Shown here in pieces: positions 11,837 to 58,612 of a stretch of DNA of 59,294 nt (position 1 is the first letter of the stretch; each line of letters starts with the position of its first letter). The notes under the pieces are model-generated. The model was not told the origin of the DNA, did no database searches, and was given only the letters and a program-made list of their open reading frames with translations. Made by a program: the position numbers and the translations under genes. This stretch comes from [Phormidium] sp. LEGE 05292. Lineage in GTDB: Bacteria > Cyanobacteriota > Cyanobacteriia > Cyanobacteriales > Aerosakkonemataceae. Location: the NCBI RefSeq assembly GCF_015207735.1, contig NZ_JADEWG010000031.1:1-59294 (forward strand), given 5' to 3'.

Positions 11837-13687
11837 TTACCTATTTTTTGATAAAAATCGATATCGATTACGTTCAATCCGGCTAAGTATCCTTGTTACC
11901 AATTCTGGCCCTAATACTGGTTTAGTAATAAAGTCATCGGCTCCAGCGGCAAAAGCTTGCTGAAGAGATTCTGCATCAATATGAGCAGTCACCACCAAAA
12001 TTGGCAAATCTCCCCATTGAGAATCCTGTCGAATCACTTGGCACAATTCTAATCCACTAACTAAAGGCATTTCTACATCCAAAACTACTAAATTTGGGTT
12101 AGTGGCAATCAAGACTTCCCAAAATTTTTCCGGTTCAGCTAAAGTAAATACTTCTAAACCCCAAGGTGTCAACAATGCTTTTAAGTTAGTTAATACTAGT
12201 GGATCGTCATCTACGATTAATACTTTAGCTTCTGTAGTAACGGTTTGAAAAACACGGTTGATTGCCTGAAAAATTTGTTCAGTTGTGGCGGGTTTATGTA
12301 AAAATTGCCTTGCTCCTAAGCGTGAAACTGTTAAGCGATCGCTCAAACTATTTTTATCAGTAAACACAATTACCGGAATTTGTGGCGATTTTTCGACTAA
12401 TTCCTGTAATAACATTAGCCCATGTTCTTCGGTATCAGAGAAACTCAAATCCAGCAGCACTAAGTCAGGAGGTGTTAAAGTAATTTGCGATCGCGCAGTT
12501 GACAAATTCAGTGCTACTTTGATCTCAATTGCCCAAGCGTCGGCTTCTGCTAATAGCTGTTCCATAAGTATGGCATCATTATCGATCGCCAAAACCCGAT
12601 GTTTTTTTGGCACTGCTTCAGTTGTCAAATCTAAGGGAATAGGAGATTTACTTAATTCCTTTTGCAACGCTGTGACTAATTGGACAAACCGAGCCATATC
12701 TTCACTACTTAAAGGAAATTTTTTTTGCAAAAGATGTTCTATTGTCCGCGCCAATCTCGATCCTTCAGGATAACCAAATGAACCTAAAGAACCCGCCAAT
12801 TTATGTGCTTCGTACTTGGCTGATTGGTATAATTTTTCGTCTAAATTTCCGGTTAAAAAAGCAGTTTTTGCCGCAGTTATCACAGCCAATTGTTCTTGCA
12901 ATATATCGCGAAATTGCTCAATGACCTTATTAATAGATGTCATTACCTTGTGTTTTTTTTCTGTTTCTGCTTCCTGACTAACTGCACTATTTTTCGGACA
13001 AGGTTTCAGTCGATAACCCATACCATAAATAGTTTCGATAATCTCTTCAGTTAAACCCCCCGCCTTGAGTTTTTTTCGCACCTCTTTAATATGAGTATTA
13101 ATTGCTCGTTCCGTAGGTGCGTCTTCAAATCCCCACAAGCGATCTAAAATAGCACTGCGGTTGAAAATGCGATCGGGATTTCGCAAAAACAACTCCAACA
13201 AATTATATTCCGTCGCCGTCAAAGGAATAACTTGTTCGCCAAAAGTTACCCTTCCAGAATTTAAATCTAAACAAAGATTTCCCCAAGTTAAGTGAGAAGA
13301 TACTTGAACATCACTAGAAACAATAGCGCCACTTCGTCTCAATAAGGCCCGAATTCTTGCTAGCAATGCTTCTGGCGCATAAGGTTTGATGACATAATCA
13401 TCCGCTCCCGCATCCAACCCAGCTACAATATCAGTATCAGAGCCTTTCGCCGTCAGCAAAAGAATTGGCTTAGTGTAACCTTGACTTCGCAGTTTTCGAC
13501 ACAAACTAATCCCATCAAGAATCGGAATTTGCAAATCTAGCACAATCAAGTCATATTCCCCGACTGTAACCAAATTTAGCCCAGTTTGCCCATCAGTCGC
13601 CAAATCAGTTATGTAGTGATGCGCCGCTAGCATCTTTTCCAGCGCCGTACTCACAAATGTATCATCTTCTACTAAAAGTATTTTCAT
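11837..13687 (-). CDS. Complex response regulator: REC-wHTH-Hpt-REC-REC (616 aa)
   Basis: Residues 1-118 are a receiver (ILLVEDD, phospho-Asp in LIVLDLQIP, Lys in VIKPY). Residues about 130-225 are an OmpR/PhoB-type winged helix (LTATEYNLLELFLRNP, ending YGMGYRLKP). Residues about 255-340 look like an Hpt domain with the likely phospho-His in AHKLAGSLGSFG. Two more receivers follow: about 353-470 (VLLDLSFSD) and about 490-605 (LVVLDVEMPLVSG). The protein therefore combines DNA binding with an internal phosphorelay. It is the first gene of the minus-strand signalling run and sits just upstream of the 1523-residue kinase. Its targets are unknown; the exopolysaccharide operon next door is a candidate by position only. 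Confidence 0.9.
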   Translation of the reverse strand: MKILLVEDDTFVSTALEKMLAAHHYITDLATDGQTGLNLVTVGEYDLIVLDLQIPILDGISLCRKLRSQGYTKPILLLTAKGSDTDIVAGLDAGADDYVIKPYAPEALLARIRALLRRSGAIVSSDVQVSSHLTWGNLCLDLNSGRVTFGEQVIPLTATEYNLLELFLRNPDRIFNRSAILDRLWGFEDAPTERAINTHIKEVRKKLKAGGLTEEIIETIYGMGYRLKPCPKNSAVSQEAETEKKHKVMTSINKVIEQFRDILQEQLAVITAAKTAFLTGNLDEKLYQSAKYEAHKLAGSLGSFGYPEGSRLARTIEHLLQKKFPLSSEDMARFVQLVTALQKELSKSPIPLDLTTEAVPKKHRVLAIDNDAILMEQLLAEADAWAIEIKVALNLSTARSQITLTPPDLVLLDLSFSDTEEHGLMLLQELVEKSPQIPVIVFTDKNSLSDRLTVSRLGARQFLHKPATTEQIFQAINRVFQTVTTEAKVLIVDDDPLVLTNLKALLTPWGLEVFTLAEPEKFWEVLIATNPNLVVLDVEMPLVSGLELCQVIRQDSQWGDLPILVVTAHIDAESLQQAFAAGADDFITKPVLGPELVTRILSRIERNRYRFLSKNR

Positions 13688-13898
13688 CAGACTAAATTTT
13701 AATCAACTACTAAAAAATCCTAACTATTAACTTGCCAAATTAATTTTTTTATTTTGGGTTAACTGTTTATCACCACCGTTGCTAGAATTGTTTGAGAAGA
13801 AGTCCCGATCTGAGTTGATGAAATAGAACACAAATTTCTTATAGTCTAATTTATAGCATTCGCCACAATTGTTAGGGCAGTTCCTTTTTACCTGTATT

Positions 13899-24184: not shown

Positions 24185-24727
24185 TCAATGGATAAAGTAT
24201 AAATCTTTTTTTTCCTTTTCTAGAATATTGGTATTTTTCGGCTTTTCAGCAGGATAGCACTTGACTAAGTGTTCGACTAGTTTGGGGCTATCAAATAGAG
24301 CACATGGTAGAGGAGAAGGTGGTTTCTTTATCGCTTCTTCAAGTGTTTCTAGGGATAAACAATGTTTCACACCTAATGATTCCACACACTGAGCAAATAA
24401 TAATTGGTGATCGTCAATATGTTCTCCGTAACGCGCCAGTCTTGGTACTAGAATAAAAGAAGCTTTCTTAGCAGCTAAAGATCTAGTAGAACCTTGACCT
24501 GCGTGAGAAATCACTAGGCGCGACTTTTCCACCAATGTCACCATGTTACTTAGGCTAACAATTGAAAATGTAGTGACTTGTGGATATTTTTTTAAAGCAG
24601 AAATTTCTGTTACCCCATGCTGAATAACCACAGGTTCAGAAATTATGCCTTTTTCGATCAAGATACCTATCCAATCTATTACTCGATTAAAAGGATAGGG
24701 AATTGTTCCTAAAGTTACAGTAATCAT
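24185..24727 (-). CDS. Alg13/PssE-like glycosyltransferase catalytic subunit (180 aa)
   Basis: It begins MITVTLGTIPYPFNRVIDW, the donor-domain opening of the Alg13/EpsF-like half-transferases, and has SHAGQGSTRSLAAKKASFIL, the nucleotide-sugar binding loop of GT28-type enzymes. The start is taken at the ATG at 24725-24727; extension upstream to a TTG at 24784 is open but adds residues not expected in the family. The partner subunit lies just upstream at 24852-25301, as in pssD-pssE and cps14F-cps14G pairs. Together they would transfer the second sugar of the repeat unit. Confidence 0.82.
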   Translation of the reverse strand: MITVTLGTIPYPFNRVIDWIGILIEKGIISEPVVIQHGVTEISALKKYPQVTTFSIVSLSNMVTLVEKSRLVISHAGQGSTRSLAAKKASFILVPRLARYGEHIDDHQLLFAQCVESLGVKHCLSLETLEEAIKKPPSPLPCALFDSPKLVEHLVKCYPAEKPKNTNILEKEKKDLYFIH

Positions 24728-51209: not shown

Positions 51210-53522
51210 ATGGTTTACGAATATCAAGTTGGTGGTAGTTTACCAATTAATGCGCCTACTTATGTCAGACGAAAAGCTGACGAAGATTTGTATGCAGCAT
51301 TAAAAGCAGGTGAGTTTTGTTATGTACTCAATTCCCGACAAATGGGTAAGTCTAGTTTGCGGGTACAAACAATGCAACGCTTACAAAATGAGGGAGTTGC
51401 TTGTGCTGCTGTTGATATTACTGCTATAGGAACTTCCGATATTACTGCTGAACAATGGTATGCCGGAATCATCGATTATTTAGTAAATGGTTTTGAACTT
51501 TACGGCAACTTCGATTTAGATGATTGGTGGACGAGTCACGGCTTATTGTCTCCTGTACAAAAGTTTAGTAAATTTTTAGGTGAAATTCTTTTAGAATCTA
51601 TTGATAAAAATATTGTAATTTTTGTTGATGAAATTGATAGTGTATTGGCTTTACCATTTAATATTGATGACTTTTTTGCGCTGATTCGGGATTGTTTTAA
51701 TCAACGGGCAGATAAACCAGAATATAACCGTTTAACTTTTGCTTTGATTGGGGTGGCAACGCCTGCGGATTTGATTAGTGACCGTCGTCGTACACCATTT
51801 AATATTGGTCGGGCAATTGAGTTAACAGGGTTTCAATTAACGGAAGCTGAACCTTTAGCAAAAGGTTTCGCTAATCGAGTGGAAAATTCCCAAGAATTGT
51901 TAGCATCGGTGTTATCTTGGACTGGCGGACAGCCTTTTTTAACCCAAAAGATTTGTAAGTTAATCAACAATTCCCTCAATTCCCAATCAATCGAACATCC
52001 CCAGGTTTGGGTAGAAAATTTGGTGCAAAAGCGGGTAATTGAAAATTGGGAAACCCAGGATGTACCAGAGCATTTAAAGACGATTAGAGATCGCATTCTC
52101 AGAAGCGAACAACGCGCCAGCAGATTATTAGGAATATATCAGCAAATCCTCCAATCAGAACCGAGTCCCCAGTCCCCAGTCGATGGCGGTCCCCAACCTC
52201 CAGTCCCCGCAGACGATACACCAGAACAAATGGAACTGCGACTTACAGGATTAGTGGTCAAGCGTGAGGGGAAACTGAGAGTTTATAACCGAATTTATCA
52301 GACTGTTTTTAACTTTGATTGGGTAGAGAAAGCATTAGCTAATCTCCGTCCTTACAACGAAAACTTTCGGGCTTGGGTAGATTCTAATTATCAAGATGAA
52401 TCGCGATTATTGCGGGGTCAAGCTTTGGAAATTGCCCAAGCTTGGGCGGCTGGGAAAAGTTTAAGTCACCAAGATTATCAGTTTTTGGATGCTAGTCGGG
52501 AGTTGGAAAGGCGGGAAGTTGAGCGTTCTTTGGCAACCGAGAGAGAAGCTAATCAAATTTTAAGTGAGGCGAGACAGAAAGCAGAGTTGGCGTTAGAGGA
52601 TGAACGGGTAGCCAAACAACAAGCACAAAAGATTAGGACTAGGACTGCGATTTTTGCTGGGGTAGTTGGATTAATTGCAGTTGGGGCAGGTGTTTTTGCT
52701 ATTTACCAAGTCATGCAAGCCCAGAATTTAAGATATGCAGTAGAGAAAACTGTCTTTTCCCAAGCATCATTTAATTCTGGAGATGGACTCAAAGCACTAC
52801 TGGAAGCATTAAAGGCAGGGCAAGCATCCAAACAACTAAATTTTTCGGAAGAATCTATTACAAATTATATTCAAGAGCAAGCTATCGCTGTCCTTGAGCA
52901 AACAGTTAATAGGGGTGAAATCAGAGAACGCAATACTTTGTCAGGTCATCAGAGTTATGTCAATAGTGTCAGTTGGAGTCCCGATGGTCAAACTCTGGCA
53001 ACCGGAAGTTGGGACAAGACGGTGAAACTGTGGAACCGACAAGGAAAGTTGCTGCAAACTCTCACAGGTCATCAGAGTTCTGTCAATAGTGTCAGTTGGA
53101 GTCCCGATGGTCAAACTCTGGCAACCGGAAGTTGGGACAAGACGGTGAAACTGTGGAACCGACAAGGAAAGTTGCTGCAAACTCTCACAGGTCATCAGAG
53201 TTCTGTCAATAGTGTCAGTTGGAGTCCCGATGGTCAAACTCTGGCAACCGGAAGTTGGGACAAGACGGTGAAACTGTGGAACCGACAAGGAAAGTTGCTG
53301 CAAACTCTCACAGGTCATCAGAGTTCTGTCAATAGTGTCAGTTGGAGTCCCGATGGTCAAACTCTGGCTACCGGAAGTTTAGACAAGACGGTGAAACTGT
53401 GGATTTTGGATGTCAATCAACTCATGGCTTCCGGCTGTGATTGGGTTAAAGATTATCTAGAAACTCATCCTGATGAAGCAAAGGAAGAACGGCGTATCTG
53501 TGCCAACCTCGCCAAAAAGTAG
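51210..53522 (+). CDS. AAA-like ATPase with membrane helix and WD40 repeats (770 aa)
   Basis: An AAA-like (PF14516 type) domain begins [17 protein letters not shown] with Walker [11 protein letters not shown] near residue 45 and Walker [12 protein letters not shown] near 140. A charged coiled coil (about 430-475) leads to one membrane helix at about 481-503 ([19 protein letters not shown]). The C-terminal part (579-733) holds four 41-residue WD40 repeats, three nearly identical ([19 protein letters not shown]). Four repeats are fewer than the seven of a normal propeller, so it may oligomerise or be a contracted array. It lies 82 bp downstream of the CHAT gene. Known AAA-WD40 proteins sense or scaffold; the ligand is unknown. 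Confidence 0.88.
52944..53405 (+). repeat. Four tandem 123-bp WD40-coding repeats
   Basis: Units begin at 52944, 53067, 53190 and 53313, exactly 123 bp (41 codons) apart. The first three differ by one or two bases; the fourth diverges after [10 protein letters not shown]. Such identity at the DNA level indicates recent unequal recombination or gene conversion. Confidence 0.95.
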
Positions 53523-53742: not shown

Positions 53743-55254
53743 ATGTTGTTAAAACCTAAATTTTTTAATTATTTAGCTTGGTTTGCGCTCTTATTTGGGA
53801 TTATAATTCGCTGCTTTCAATATTTGAGTAATCGCTCTTTGTGGGGAGACGAAGCAAGTCTGGCGTTGAATATTGTCGATCGCTCTTACCTAGAATTACT
53901 ACAACCTTTAGATCATAATCAAGCTGCACCTTTCGGGTTTTTGTGGATTGAAAAATTAGCAACTCAGCTATTTGGACACAGCGAATATTCATTGCGCTTG
54001 TTTCCTCTCATTGCTGGAATCGCTTCTTTATTTCTTCTTTATGAATTAGGTAAAAATACTGTATCTGTGGTTGCTTTACCGATCGCACTAATTCTATTCG
54101 CTTCCCTCAAAGAACCTCTTTATTATGCTACTGAAGTTAAGCAATATTCTAGCGATGTTATGGTAGCATTGCTGCTTTCTCTAGTTTTAATACCCCTAAA
54201 AAATCAAATTTTAACCTTACCCAAAATTATCTTATTTGGTGGCTTGGGAATATTAGCAATTTGTCTATCTCATCCAGCTATTTTTGTCTTAGCAGGAATT
54301 GAGAGTGCCAATTTTCTGTTAACTCCTGCTAAAAGACGAAGAGAAATTCTGATTAACCGTTTACCCCTCTATTTTATTTGGATTATTGGTTTTGGCTTTT
54401 TCTATTCTTTAACTTTAGCAAATGCCGCCAAAAATCAAAACTTACACAATGCTTGGAAACCTGAATATCCCCAATCTGTATTAGACTTAGGCTGGCTAAT
54501 AAATTCTTTGAAAAGGTTCTTCAATAATCCATTAGGATTTGAAACTATAGACGAAATTTCTTTAATTGTGTTTATCATAGGTAGCATTATATTCCTGAGA
54601 AAAAACAAACAGATGTTTCTGGTGTTAATGTCTCCATTATTTGTAACTTTGGTGGCGGCATATCTTCATAAATATCCTTTTCGTAACCGCTTAATTTTAT
54701 TTTTAACTCCTTTTTTCATTTTAATCATTGCTGAGGGTGCAGCATTTCTAACTTCTCAATTCAGTAAGCAGAAAAAGCTGAGAACAACAGCCGGAGTAAT
54801 AATTATTAATTTATTAATCCTTCCACCTTTAATTTTATCAAGTATATTTTTCTTTGTTCCAGAAACGAGACACGAAATTAGACCTGTAATTGAGTATATA
54901 CAAGCTAATCAACAACCCAATGATGGCATATTTTTAGTTGGAGGCTCGCCCGATCAATTTGAATATTATGCAGCCAAATATGGCTACTCTAAATCTATGT
55001 ATTTTATTCTTCCTTATAACGACTTTTTTAATCCTGAGACATTTTCGGAACAAAATTGGGAAGAAATTAAACGCACATCATCACACCTACAAAATAAACA
55101 GCGTGTTTGGTTTATAGTTTCTGGATTAAGGAGAGAAAGAGAAGTTATAGTTAAGCCTAGTCTCGATCGCTTAGGGCAAAAACTGGACTATTTCAGCAAG
55201 CCAGGATCGCTGACTTATCTTTATCAGATGAAATCAGGTGAAAGCAGACAATAA
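53743..55254 (+). CDS. GT39/PMT-like polyprenyl-phosphate-sugar transferase (503 aa)
   Basis: The protein has about ten membrane helices and the N-terminal SLWGDEASLALNI motif with the acidic pair typical of the PMT_2/ArnT-like superfamily. APFGFLWIEKL and EYSLRLFPLIAG follow, as is usual there. These enzymes move a sugar from a polyprenyl phosphate to protein, lipid or glycan on the outer face of the inner membrane. The acceptor is unknown. The last five codons and the stop lie in the left end of the Tn7-like element (55239-56580), so the C-terminus may have been changed by that insertion. Confidence 0.85.
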   Translation: MLLKPKFFNYLAWFALLFGIIIRCFQYLSNRSLWGDEASLALNIVDRSYLELLQPLDHNQAAPFGFLWIEKLATQLFGHSEYSLRLFPLIAGIASLFLLYELGKNTVSVVALPIALILFASLKEPLYYATEVKQYSSDVMVALLLSLVLIPLKNQILTLPKIILFGGLGILAICLSHPAIFVLAGIESANFLLTPAKRRREILINRLPLYFIWIIGFGFFYSLTLANAAKNQNLHNAWKPEYPQSVLDLGWLINSLKRFFNNPLGFETIDEISLIVFIIGSIIFLRKNKQMFLVLMSPLFVTLVAAYLHKYPFRNRLILFLTPFFILIIAEGAAFLTSQFSKQKKLRTTAGVIIINLLILPPLILSSIFFFVPETRHEIRPVIEYIQANQQPNDGIFLVGGSPDQFEYYAAKYGYSKSMYFILPYNDFFNPETFSEQNWEEIKRTSSHLQNKQRVWFIVSGLRREREVIVKPSLDRLGQKLDYFSKPGSLTYLYQMKSGESRQ

Positions 55255-55307
55255 AGTTGTACACTTGTGGCTCTAGGGCTGACCTATGGAGGATAAAGTT
55301 GTATACT
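55247..55307 (+). repeat. Left-end TnsB-type sites of the Tn7-like element
   Basis: CAATAAAGTTGTACACT at 55249-55265 and GGATAAAGTTGTATACT at 55291-55307, 42 bp apart and in the same orientation. The first overlaps the stop codon of the GT39-like gene. Confidence 0.8.
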
Positions 55308-55489
55308 AAGAAGCTTATTATGTGGCTTTGGAACTGCTTAGGCGATCGCTGAGGTGTAAGCCATCGCCACTACCAAATCAAATCCGATCGGCTGTTGTGG
55401 AGTTGTCGAGCGAGCGTACACAGTGGAAAGATTTGTCTTGTTTGATGCAAATCTTTGATCTCAACTGCGATCGCTTGATATTGATTTTT

Positions 55490-55617
55490 TTATTTTGGCA
55501 CAGACCAAGAACGAACTTCGCCCAAAGTTACAGGAATCCTGTCGCTCACATCAACTGTAAACCGATAAACTTTCTTCGCCCTCCGACCATTTTCAGGATC
55601 GAAAAACTTTCGTTCAG
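55490..55617 (-). pseudogene. C-terminal fragment of an unrecognised gene
   Basis: The minus strand reads RKFFDPENGRRAKKVYRFTV and then DVSDRIPVTLGEVRSWSVPK before a stop, with an in-frame TGA just upstream of the readable part and no start codon. The composition looks like real protein. It lies between the left end and the Uma2 gene, so it is probably decayed cargo. Family unknown. The rest of 55255-55648 holds nothing recognisable. Confidence 0.4.
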
Positions 55618-55648
55618 TTCAATATCTTCTGACCAATAAGGTTTGCAC

Positions 55649-56227
55649 TCAAAAAACGGGTAATTCTAAAACAAATCCGGGTAAGACATTTTCTCCGGAT
55701 AAACTTGTGGGTAATTGAACAATTTCAACGGTTTGATGCGGACGGTAGATTTCTACTTGTTGCGCTTGGGGATTAATCAACCAACCTAACCGCAAACCGC
55801 TGTTGAGATATTCCTGCATTTTTTCTTGCAGTTGGGTTAGGGAGTCGGTACGAGAACGCAACTCTATCACAAAATCAGGACATAATGGGGGAAATTTCTC
55901 TTGTTCTTCTGGTGTTAATGATTCCCAGCGTTCGTTGGCGACCCAAGCAACATCGGGAGAACGGTCTCCCCCATTCGGTAAGCGAAATATGGTAGACGAA
56001 CTAAAGACTCTGCCGAGTTGAGTTTGACGATTCCATAACCAAAGAGGGCCGTTTAAATCGGCTTCTCGATTTCCACTAACTCCACCGACGGGAGGCATAA
56101 TTATTAATTCTCCTTTGGGTGTTCGTTCCAGTTGCCAATTTTGATTGTCTTGGCAGAGTTGGTAAAATTGCTCGTCGCTTAAGTCTACATTTTTTAAATT
56201 TAAAATTACCGGAGTGGAAGTAATCAT
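55649..56227 (-). CDS. Uma2-family putative restriction endonuclease (192 aa)
   Basis: Length and motifs match the Uma2/DUF820 family, a PD-(D/E)XK nuclease fold very common in cyanobacteria. ELIIMPPVGG, SPDVAWV (metal-binding Asp), CPDFVIELRSRTD (Glu of the core) and LGWLINPQAQQVEIYRP are conserved, as is the opening LSDEQFYQLCQDN. The biological role of the family is unproven. This copy is intact and is the only complete gene within the Tn7-like element, suggesting cargo. Confidence 0.9.
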   Translation of the reverse strand: MITSTPVILNLKNVDLSDEQFYQLCQDNQNWQLERTPKGELIIMPPVGGVSGNREADLNGPLWLWNRQTQLGRVFSSSTIFRLPNGGDRSPDVAWVANERWESLTPEEQEKFPPLCPDFVIELRSRTDSLTQLQEKMQEYLNSGLRLGWLINPQAQQVEIYRPHQTVEIVQLPTSLSGENVLPGFVLELPVF

Positions 56228-56242
56228 TGCTGAAAATTCCCC

Positions 56243-56317
56243 ATGCCAAGGAAACGCCGTAATTTAAAACTTGGATACTCTTACCATATCACCTCTCGTT
56301 GCAACAATCGCGAGTAG
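56243..56317 (+). pseudogene. N-terminal fragment of a REP-associated (IS200-like) transposase
   Basis: ATG at 56243 opens MPRKRRNLKL and continues GYSYHITSRCNNRE, then TAG. This matches the opening of Y1/RAYT transposases (YHxxxRxNNRE motif). The catalytic HUH and Tyr are missing, so it is a 24-codon remnant. It ends exactly where an unrelated minus-strand fragment begins. Confidence 0.6.
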
Positions 56318-56375
56318 TTGGATCGACACCAAGCTGACGTGCTATTCCTCGTAAACTAACAGTTGAATCTTGCCA
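56312..56375 (-). pseudogene. Helix-turn-helix fragment of a transposition gene
   Basis: The minus strand reads QDSTVSLRGIARQLGVDPTT, a helix-turn-helix segment, preceded by an in-frame stop. It resembles the C-terminal repeats of TnsD/TniQ proteins or the InsA part of IS1-family transposases; the fragment is too short to decide. The preceding frame (DEVIRWLNVSVARDLMARFN, 56377-56427 region) may be its frameshifted upstream part. Confidence 0.4.
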
Positions 56376-56493
56376 TTAAGTCCCTAGCAACTGATACGTT
56401 TAGCCATCTGATTACCTCATCCAGATGGTTAATACAAGCCAGTCTCCAGAACTTATCGCTCTGGAAAACCTGGCAAGTAAAATTTCCGTGCTC

Positions 56494-56572
56494 ATTGTAC
56501 AACTTTATTGTTCAGTGTACAAGTTTCAGGCACGGTGTACGACTTTATTGGCAAGTGTACAACTTTATTGTC
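56494..56572 (-). repeat. Right-end TnsB-type site array of the Tn7-like element
   Basis: Four 17-bp sites at 56494, 56514, 56534 and 56554 follow a strict 20-bp pitch. Read inward from glmS they are CAATAAAGTTGTACACT, CAATAAAGTCGTACACC, CCTGAAACTTGTACACT and CAATAAAGTTGTACAAT. The third is degenerate in its first half. Tn7 right ends also carry four abutting TnsB sites. Confidence 0.88.
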
Positions 56573-56582
56573 TTTATACACC

Positions 56583-58484
56583 TTATTCAACTGTTACCGA
56601 CTTCGCCAAATTTCGAGGTTGATCGACATCTAAACCTCGTCTTGAAGCGATATGATAAGCCAACAATTGCAAAGGAATTACTGTCACAATGGGAGACAAT
56701 AATTCATCAACTAAAGGAACTGGTAAAACTTGATCGAAAACATCAGATTCTTCACCTTCATTAGCAGCGGTTACGCCAATTAAACGGGAATCGCGGGCTT
56801 TGGCTTCTTGGGCATTGGAAATTACTTTTTCGTAAACTGGACTACCGGGCATTGCGATCGCCACTACCGGAACTTTAGCATCTAAAAGAGCGATCGGGCC
56901 ATGTTTCATTTCCCCAGCCGGATAACCCTCAGCATGAATATAACTAATTTCCTTCAGTTTCAGCGCCCCTTCCAAAGCAATTGGATAATTAATTCCCCTA
57001 CCCAAAAAGATAAAATCTTGCGTCTCCGCAAAATCATGGGCTAACTCTTCAATATATCTTTCTTGGCTTTCCAAAACCATTTCAATTTGTGCCGGAAGCA
57101 ATCGCAAAGCATCCAAAATCTTTACTATTGCTGTAGCAGATAAAGACTTTCTCCGATAAGCCAAATCCAAAGCCAAACAATAAAAAGCAATTAATTGTGC
57201 CAAAAAAGTTTTCGTCGCCGCCACCCCAATTTCAATCCCAGCATGGGTGTCAATAATATGAGAAACTAATTGACCAAGAGAACTTTCAGGACGATTAGTA
57301 ATTCCCAATAATCTAGCCTCAAACTCCGCAGACTTACCCAACCTGCGAGTTTGTTCCATTGACAACGCAGCCAAAGTATCAGCCGTTTCCCCTGATTGTG
57401 TCACCCCAATAGTTAAAGTATTTGCAGTTAACGGCGGTGGTGCATAACGAAACTCCGAAGCATACTGCACAGTCGTCGTAATTCCGGCCAACTGTTCCAA
57501 CAAATATTTTCCTACCAAACCAGCGTGCCAAGAAGTACCACAAGCCAAAATTTGAATATGTTCTAAATCTGCACAAAGTTCTTCTGGTAATTCCAATTTA
57601 ATCGGTGATTTCCCATTAGATGCCGTCCAATCACTATCAAGATAAGCTTCTAAACAAGCCCTGACCACCCCTGGCTGTTCATAGATTTCTTTCAACATGA
57701 AATGACGGAATCCCTGCTTTTCTACTAATATCGGATTCCAATTCAAAGTGCGGGGAGTTTTCTTCAATCTATCACCCGCAAAATTGTACACCTCCACACC
57801 CAAAGGAGTTAACCGCGCTAATTCCCCATTTTCCAAAGTTAAAACCGCACGAGTATAAGGCACAATTGCCGGAGTATCCGACGCACAGAAAAACTCACCC
57901 GAACCAAAACCGATCGCCAAAGGAGCCTGCTGTCTCGCTACAATTAACTCATCAGGAAAATCAGCAGAAATCACAGCAATCGCAAACGCCCCCTCCAGCT
58001 TACTCACAGCCTGTCGCACCGCTTCCAAAAACCGCGAACTAACAGAAACCGCAGAATTATTCGGCAACAAAGTTAAAAACTCCGCAATTAAATGCGGAAT
58101 CACTTCCGTATCCGTATCCGAACGAAACTTATGCCCCCGACTCTTTAACTCTTCCCGCAACTCCCGGTAATTTTCCACAATCCCATTTTGCACCACCGCC
58201 ACACGCATCGCCGTATCCGTATGAGGATGCGCGTTGTACTCCTCCGGCTTACCATGCGTAGCCCAGCGAGTATGCCCAATTCCTATTTGCGCCGGATTTT
58301 CATCACCTGCCAACTTATCACGCAGGTTTTGCAACTTCCCTTTAGCCCGAACGCAGTAAACCTCTCCCTCTCTCACAGTGGCAACGCCAGCAGAATCGTA
58401 ACCCCGGTATTCCAGCTTCTCTAATCCTGCTAATAAAATCTCACTAGCTGCCTGAGTGCCAATATAACCAACAATTCCACACAT
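56583..58484 (-). CDS. glmS: Glutamine-fructose-6-phosphate aminotransferase (633 aa)
   Basis: GlmS makes glucosamine-6-phosphate from fructose-6-phosphate and glutamine, the first step to UDP-GlcNAc. The start is ATG 58482-58484, giving MCGIVGYIG so that Cys becomes the N-terminal nucleophile after Met removal; the frame continues upstream to 58514 but that would bury the Cys. The glutaminase domain (1-240; YRGYDSAG, HTRWATHG) is followed by two SIS sugar-isomerase domains (GTSWHAGLVGK, SGETADTLA, EGYPAGEMKHGP) and the conserved end PRNLAKSVTVE. Length is normal. The stop codon is 2 bp from the terminus of the Tn7-like element. The 3' coding end is the classical TnsD recognition region. Confidence 0.97.
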   Translation of the reverse strand: MCGIVGYIGTQAASEILLAGLEKLEYRGYDSAGVATVREGEVYCVRAKGKLQNLRDKLAGDENPAQIGIGHTRWATHGKPEEYNAHPHTDTAMRVAVVQNGIVENYRELREELKSRGHKFRSDTDTEVIPHLIAEFLTLLPNNSAVSVSSRFLEAVRQAVSKLEGAFAIAVISADFPDELIVARQQAPLAIGFGSGEFFCASDTPAIVPYTRAVLTLENGELARLTPLGVEVYNFAGDRLKKTPRTLNWNPILVEKQGFRHFMLKEIYEQPGVVRACLEAYLDSDWTASNGKSPIKLELPEELCADLEHIQILACGTSWHAGLVGKYLLEQLAGITTTVQYASEFRYAPPPLTANTLTIGVTQSGETADTLAALSMEQTRRLGKSAEFEARLLGITNRPESSLGQLVSHIIDTHAGIEIGVAATKTFLAQLIAFYCLALDLAYRRKSLSATAIVKILDALRLLPAQIEMVLESQERYIEELAHDFAETQDFIFLGRGINYPIALEGALKLKEISYIHAEGYPAGEMKHGPIALLDAKVPVVAIAMPGSPVYEKVISNAQEAKARDSRLIGVTAANEGEESDVFDQVLPVPLVDELLSPIVTVIPLQLLAYHIASRRGLDVDQPRNLAKSVTVE

Positions 58485-58612
58485 TTCACGACCACTCCTG
58501 CTCTTGCCAAACAACTATACTTACTTGCTAAAAGCTACTGAGCTATCAGGATAACGTCAAGTTTTCAGCAAGTCATCAAAAAAAGGAACAGGGACTAGGA
58601 AAGTTTTGAGTT

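Follow-up and report, generated by a model that had tools for sequence, protein, structure and literature searches.

A Tn7-type element without tns genes at the glmS end of [Phormidium] sp. LEGE 05292, probably a rearranged remnant

The DNA next to the 3' end of glmS in [Phormidium] sp. LEGE 05292 carries inverted repeats resembling transposon ends, and the question raised by this locus is what kind of element, working or decayed, is docked there. The stretch analysed (contig NZ_JADEWG010000031.1, positions 1 to 59,294, hereafter the window) belongs to a 351-contig draft genome, referred to as G000. Eleven phycobilisome-family matches in G000, with Synechococcus elongatus the sole positive among 14 control genomes, support its cyanobacterial origin. 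The window segment 55239-56580 is bounded by inverted Tn7-type ends, with two sites on the left and a four-unit array on the right. An earlier note on this DNA had claimed a compact Tn7-family element at glmS, with its right end toward the gene and without transposase, and this much was supported. That the compact element is intact was not, as its left end appears truncated or altered. We read the element, with a probability of about 0.66, as a non-autonomous, rearranged and probably immobile remnant of a glmS-homing TnsA-TnsB-TnsC-TniQ/TnsD Tn7-like transposon.

In Tn7 the right end consists of several abutting TnsB sites and faces glmS, and the left end holds spaced sites. TnsB pairs the two ends of an intact element of this type, and TnsD binds the end of glmS. 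The window shows the following:

55239-55308, plus strand: left end, with a putative terminus TGAAAGCA (55239-55246) and sites at 55247-55266 (26.4 bits) and 55289-55308 (21.3 bits).
56493-56580, minus strand: right end, with the terminus TGTATAAA (56573-56580) and units at 56553-56572 (26.4 bits), 56533-56552 (23.3 bits), 56513-56532 (degenerate, 8.0 bits) and 56493-56512 (23.7 bits).
56583-58514, minus strand: glmS, with SIS and GATase domains, ending LAKSVTVE; stop codon at 56583-56585.

The outermost sites lie in a perfect inverted repeat of 21 bp (55247-55267 and 56552-56572), as the earlier note had it, coordinates included; with independent bases the window would be expected to hold about 0.001 perfect pairs of this length. 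The bit scores come from a site matrix built from other genomes only, with the window's own sites left out, and the highest background scores were 12.5 bits in the first 55.2 kb and 8.7 bits beyond 56600. Four right-end sites at an exact 20-bp pitch had been claimed; the register holds, but the third unit, taken alone, falls within the background. The DNA of the right array is 79% identical over 78 bp to an array in genome G011 and 86% over 43 bp to G001, the only genome of the same genus that was searched. Judged from sequence, the abutting 20-bp array on the right and the spaced TnsB-type sites on the left would correspond to the ends of a Tn7-like element; the TG-initial right terminus and the orientation toward glmS are likewise shared with Tn7 and other TnsD-homing elements. 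Searches of the window for tRNAs and for Rfam families above their gathering scores were negative.

Arrays of the same type were surveyed in 388 genomes of the order with a pattern of two tandem sites (at most 2 mismatches allowed), which was present in 28 genomes; the reversed control pattern gave 1 match, in 1 genome. We read 29 arrays, one per positive genome and a second one in G000 (further matches in some genomes were not taken as arrays), and their outermost units were picked by eye. Twenty of the 29, in 20 of the 28 genomes and with the window included, lie downstream of a recognised glmS end, and the loci of the remaining nine showed no GlmS similarity. Matches to glmS itself were obtained in 59 of 60 genomes searched, G000 among them. 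The possibility that the repeats occur at many loci unrelated to Tn7-like elements was examined in this way, and the arrays proved not to be a scattered, unrelated repeat, though nine of the 29 lie away from glmS. TnsA and/or TnsB was detected (1.8-3.0 kb per locus, threshold E 1e-5) in 10 of the 20 glmS-docked loci and in one of the nine others (G224). Five of the ten positive glmS loci themselves supplied queries, and four of these five (G022, G031, G096, G169) were first found with queries from G056. No TnsA or TnsB reached the threshold in the other ten glmS-docked loci, the window included, which may partly reflect short flanks or limited sensitivity. These ten loci would suit a reading of the sites as a regulatory or structural repeat at glmS instead of transposon ends. 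We disfavour it as very improbable, since in several genomes the arrays mark the borders of DNA with TnsABC, and perfect target duplications accompany ends formed by them, at places other than glmS too.

What a tns-bearing member of the family looks like can be seen in G056, which holds two copies of 6489 and 6491 bp, each with TnsA-TnsB-TnsC-TniQ/TnsD and matching ends. The TnsB proteins of the copies are 99.8% identical and the other three proteins 100%; both copies have the termini TGTATAGA and TGTATACA and perfect 5-bp duplications (ACAGG and CCCCC). The TniQ/TnsD protein of 299 aa matches the 355-position TnsD profile over positions 1-106 only, and besides the four tns genes no open reading frame (ORF) of at least 100 aa lies between the ends. 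The G056 elements are presumably autonomous. At glmS in G096, TnsABC, TniQ/TnsD, Cas5, Cas6 and two transposase ORFs occur within 16.2 kb. Because one end type is carried both by a plain Tn7-like element (G056) and by one resembling a transposon associated with clustered regularly interspaced short palindromic repeats (CRISPR-associated transposon, CAST; G096), the window element can be assigned to neither.

Of the Tn7/CAST family proposed earlier, the Tn7 part therefore stands, as relatives have the same sites at the same place together with TnsA, TnsB, TnsC and TniQ/TnsD. The CAST part is indirect: G096 has Cas5 and Cas6, but the G056 element has only tns genes. PMC11406308 describes I-B1 elements as close relatives of Tn7 with a glmS-targeting TnsD, and G096 shares the site type of the window at glmS. 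The window element, unlike a type I-B CAST with its Cas genes and CRISPR array inside, showed no Cas gene, and no CRISPR-like repeat array was seen in 54500-57500. A CAST remnant is conceivable by descent, yet nothing seen in the window element shows it.

Two further loci were recorded among the relatives. In G357 (locus L126, 3270-15512) the Tn7-type ends at glmS enclose 12.2 kb in which no tns gene was detected, and there is no duplication; among the proteins encoded by the interior ORFs are ABC exporter, patatin, FeeM-like and sigma-factor ones. In G030 (C68, locus L130, 9381-9663) two facing arrays lie about 0.3 kb apart, the sequence between them resembles both G056 ends by eye, and the pair looks like an internal-deletion derivative.

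Between the ends of the window element two stretches could be related to other genomes:

55649-56227, minus strand: Uma2-family gene, 192 aa (PF05685, E 5.8e-48), the sole recognised whole cargo gene.
55461-55610, plus strand as listed (strand not established): short stretch common to G004, 88% identical over 151 bp to locus L071, about 11 kb from the G004 glmS; possibly a gene fragment.

No tns ORF or recognisable tns remnant was seen in the element, and the eight Tns proteins of G056 and G096 gave at best E 0.13 against it. The TnsA, TnsB and TnsC genes that an autonomous Tn7-like transposon carries are thus missing, and the ends match those of a tns-bearing family, as in a non-autonomous derivative; because the defining tns gene content is lacking, the element was filed as a derivative of the Tn7-like family. 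The Uma2 gene is the only ORF in the element with a Pfam match, and a 105-aa ORF at 55322-55639 had none. The Uma2 DNA matches copies in G360 and G005 at 90-91% identity, and the 3.7-kb loci around those copies contain no Tn7-like site. A DNA search with the whole unit gave matches in 350 of 376 genomes (at most 2 candidates scored per genome). Among the matches listed, all but that of the window to itself fall on the Uma2 part, together with as much as about 90 bp of adjoining DNA, so the search tells little about the ends, and Uma2 is best regarded as ordinary cargo or a bystander.

The left junction runs into a neighbouring gene:

53743-55254, plus strand: PMT_2-type glycosyltransferase gene, 503 aa (Pfam PF13231), with its reading frame now stopping within the first TnsB-like site.

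In five homologs of this gene (from G000 and G001) a stop codon directly follows the matching AAA codon. The native stop is destroyed in the window copy, where only its T is left and the frame continues into the first site; the DNA match to the G001 ortholog stops at 55234. The two left sites of the window are 42 bp apart. The first two left sites in G056, G096, G357, G001 and G312 are separated by 67, 67, 67, 68 and 68 bp, and a third site follows 45-65 bp further in four of them (G056, G096, G357, G312). A sixth end could be compared, the distal one of a 149-bp element in G041; its first two sites are 58 bp apart, the second of them weak (13.9 bits). A mini-element in G006 has a single left site, and two facing sites in G030 lie 55 bp apart, like the inner pair of G056. 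The window spacing is closest to the inner spacing of the relatives.

Both termini had been described as 8-bp TG-initial segments. The right one reads TGTATAAA. The left 8-mer opens with TGA and, because 27 of the 29 outermost arrays start with a TGT terminus, the left terminus is doubtful. The 5-bp flanks differ, as had been noted (TCAGG and CCTTA), and there is no 5-bp target duplication. Nine elements could be read at both ends; four have a perfect 5-bp duplication (G041, both G056 copies, G312) and five have none (window, G001, G096, G357, G006), so the missing duplication alone is weak evidence. Taken together, the TGA start, the 42-bp spacing, the destroyed stop codon of the neighbour and the lack of a duplication make the left end look damaged, and the earlier suggestion of a rearranged left side is supported. 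The simplest inference is that a breakpoint between 55234 and 55247 took away the outermost left site and the terminus.

A different account of the same ends is that of a functional non-autonomous element resembling a miniature inverted-repeat transposable element (MITE), with intact ends, mobilised in trans by a related TnsABC+D system and carrying Uma2 as cargo. Mini-elements with ends of this kind do occur in the order. A 149-bp MITE-like element with Tn7-type ends lies 23 bp past glmS in G041 (locus L070, 728-876) and has a perfect 5-bp duplication, TAACT; its glmS-side end is one strong site, with no clear tandem array. G312 (locus L138, 8510-8844) holds a 335-bp mini-element with Tn7-type ends and the perfect duplication TTTCT, and a second G312 locus (C5) matches only its first 97 bp. 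The G006 element, of 209 bp with Tn7-type ends, has no duplication. All three, like the window element, have such ends without tns genes; they are far smaller than the window element, which measures 1.34 kb with Uma2 and lacks the duplication seen in G041 and G312. Strong sites are kept at both window ends, and the 58 bp at the far end of G041 make left spacing a variable character. Still, we consider a functional mini-element unlikely in the window, since the left junction is abnormal, as described above, and G000 showed neither a further pair of such ends nor a TnsB-like protein that is more than distantly related. A broader proposal, that the glmS sites of cyanobacteria host transposase-less Tn7-type parasites (from about 150 bp up) of TnsABC+D transposons, which inherit glmS homing, and that the window element is a cargo-carrying, intact-ended member of them, we also hold to be doubtful. 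Literature searches combining Tn7 with MITE terms returned no title or abstract on Tn7-type mini-elements, which is not a claim that they are absent from print.

Possible partners and helpers were sought in G000, as the earlier note had proposed. At 0-2 mismatches the site pattern was found in the window element, in a second array on C214 and as a lone site on C245. With up to 3 mismatches the pattern gave 35 matches and its reversed control 31; since this larger total hardly differs from the control, only the 0-2-mismatch matches were used. A further pair of ends of the window type was not seen. Tn7-like machinery is present elsewhere in G000, but a close TnsB is not: the best TnsB-like proteins are 25-30% identical to that of G056. 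C147 (locus L026) carries TnsA-TnsB-TnsC-TniQ with other flanking repeats; it was rejected as the cognate transposase source, as its end repeats differ (by eye) and its TnsB is 22-30% identical to G056 TnsB. C245 (locus L024, 15520-16833) was rejected as a partner, its TnsA-type frame being cut short beside an ORF resembling an insertion sequence (IS; by eye). At its glmS, G001 has a tns-less end pair with IS200/IS605-type ORFs inside (judged from sequence) and no TnsB match. No helper is therefore known in the genus, as the TnsB-like proteins of G000 are distant and G001 has none.

The C214 array (locus L021, 7940-8007) has three units at a 20-bp pitch, and its terminus, TGTGGTCA, touches the start of a parA-type ORF in what by eye is a parA/parB-type pair. 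Similar arrays stand by apparent parA starts in G006, at its 209-bp mini-element, and in G224, with its TnsA/TnsB pieces. This suggests that parA-type gene starts are a second preferred target.

The mismatched flanks could also mean that the segment is composite, its right end left by an old glmS insertion and its left-like sites by a second, stacked element, with chromosomal debris between. Stacking of this kind does occur next to glmS: in G056 the 6.49-kb element is preceded by tandem ends of another type, GAGAATAGTTAATTGAAC-like. By eye this end type has a 20-bp pitch, lies about 23-24 bp past glmS and is found in G030 as well as G056 (loci L052, L056). The absence of Tn7-type sites from the 3.7-kb loci around the closest Uma2 copies would fit too. 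The 21-bp identity and the inverted orientation of the outer sites nevertheless fit a single element, and a composite origin seems quite improbable.

At the right end the terminus (56580) is 2 bp from the glmS stop, as the earlier note had stated. According to PMC2918618, TnsD-directed insertion of Tn7 occurs about 20 bp downstream of glmS with 5-bp duplications. The window element departs from this in its gap and in having no duplication, as it departs from Tn7 in having no tns genes. Its closeness to the gene, also remarked on earlier, makes it a true outlier. Gaps of 17-27 bp to the stop codon are found in 18 of the 20 glmS-docked arrays, that of G056 being 231 bp and that of the window 2 bp. 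The position downstream of glmS with the right end toward the gene is nonetheless Tn7-like, though the gap falls outside the usual range. If the gap is counted from the second right unit of the window, it comes to 22 bp, which is where the first unit usually lies in relatives; the outermost unit occupies what is normally flank. The simplest account, which has to be assumed, is a deletion of 21 bp.

A larger difference emerges from comparison with G001. Shared DNA extends to window position 13754 and resumes at 56537, continuing into glmS; between these points the window has about 43 kb (13754-56537) in place of about 6 kb in G001 (C14, 95487-101392). A 43-kb Tn7 element with its far left end near 13.75 kb was considered and rejected, as no end sites were found there. 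A scan with an earlier matrix, which included the window's own sites, gave beyond the known sites one match of 11.5 bits, at 24214, and three shuffled windows reached 11.2 bits. The heptamer CCTTATG (right flank plus TG) has just two copies, at 13384 and 48406, which lie on the minus strand and have no sites. Because G001 holds parts of the block on another contig, the difference of about 43 kb is taken as a wider rearrangement. Elsewhere in the window, at about 52940-53370, near-identical tandem DNA units code for WD40 repeats in a 770-aa ORF (by eye), which suggests recent expansion of these units.

On the preferred reading, that of a rearranged remnant, a TnsD-type pathway would have inserted the element downstream of glmS with its right end facing the gene, after which the tns genes would have been lost. 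A chromosomal rearrangement would then have removed the outer left end and joined the rest to an unrelated gene at the 3' end of the latter, and through a small deletion the right terminus would have come to lie 2 bp from the glmS stop. What remains between the ends would be a Uma2 gene of the ordinary kind and, probably, fragments of genes, and the element would no longer be mobile. The sequence itself shows the ends, their docking at glmS, the lack of tns genes, the family to which the sites belong and the abnormal left junction; we infer the order of events and the loss of the outer left end. Several points weigh against this reading. The two left sites are both strong, the right end repeats the outer one perfectly over 21 bp, and a TG stands at the correct distance from that site. 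The left end might thus be intact, if atypical. The spacing of left sites is not fixed, as an element with a perfect duplication, that of G041, has 58 bp at its far end. The tns-bearing G096 element likewise has no target duplication, the 2-bp gap is explained only through an assumed deletion, and there may be an assembly join at 55.24 kb.

If simply decayed, the window element is ordinary in kind. It adds a tns-less case to the Tn7-type ends docked at glmS in cyanobacteria, and the family provides marks by which such stubs can be recognised, namely tandem 20-bp sites, a gap to glmS that is usually 17-27 bp and a left spacing that is mostly 67-68 bp. The mini-elements of G041 and G312, with their perfect duplications, suggest that gene-less elements can parasitise Tn7-type transposition.

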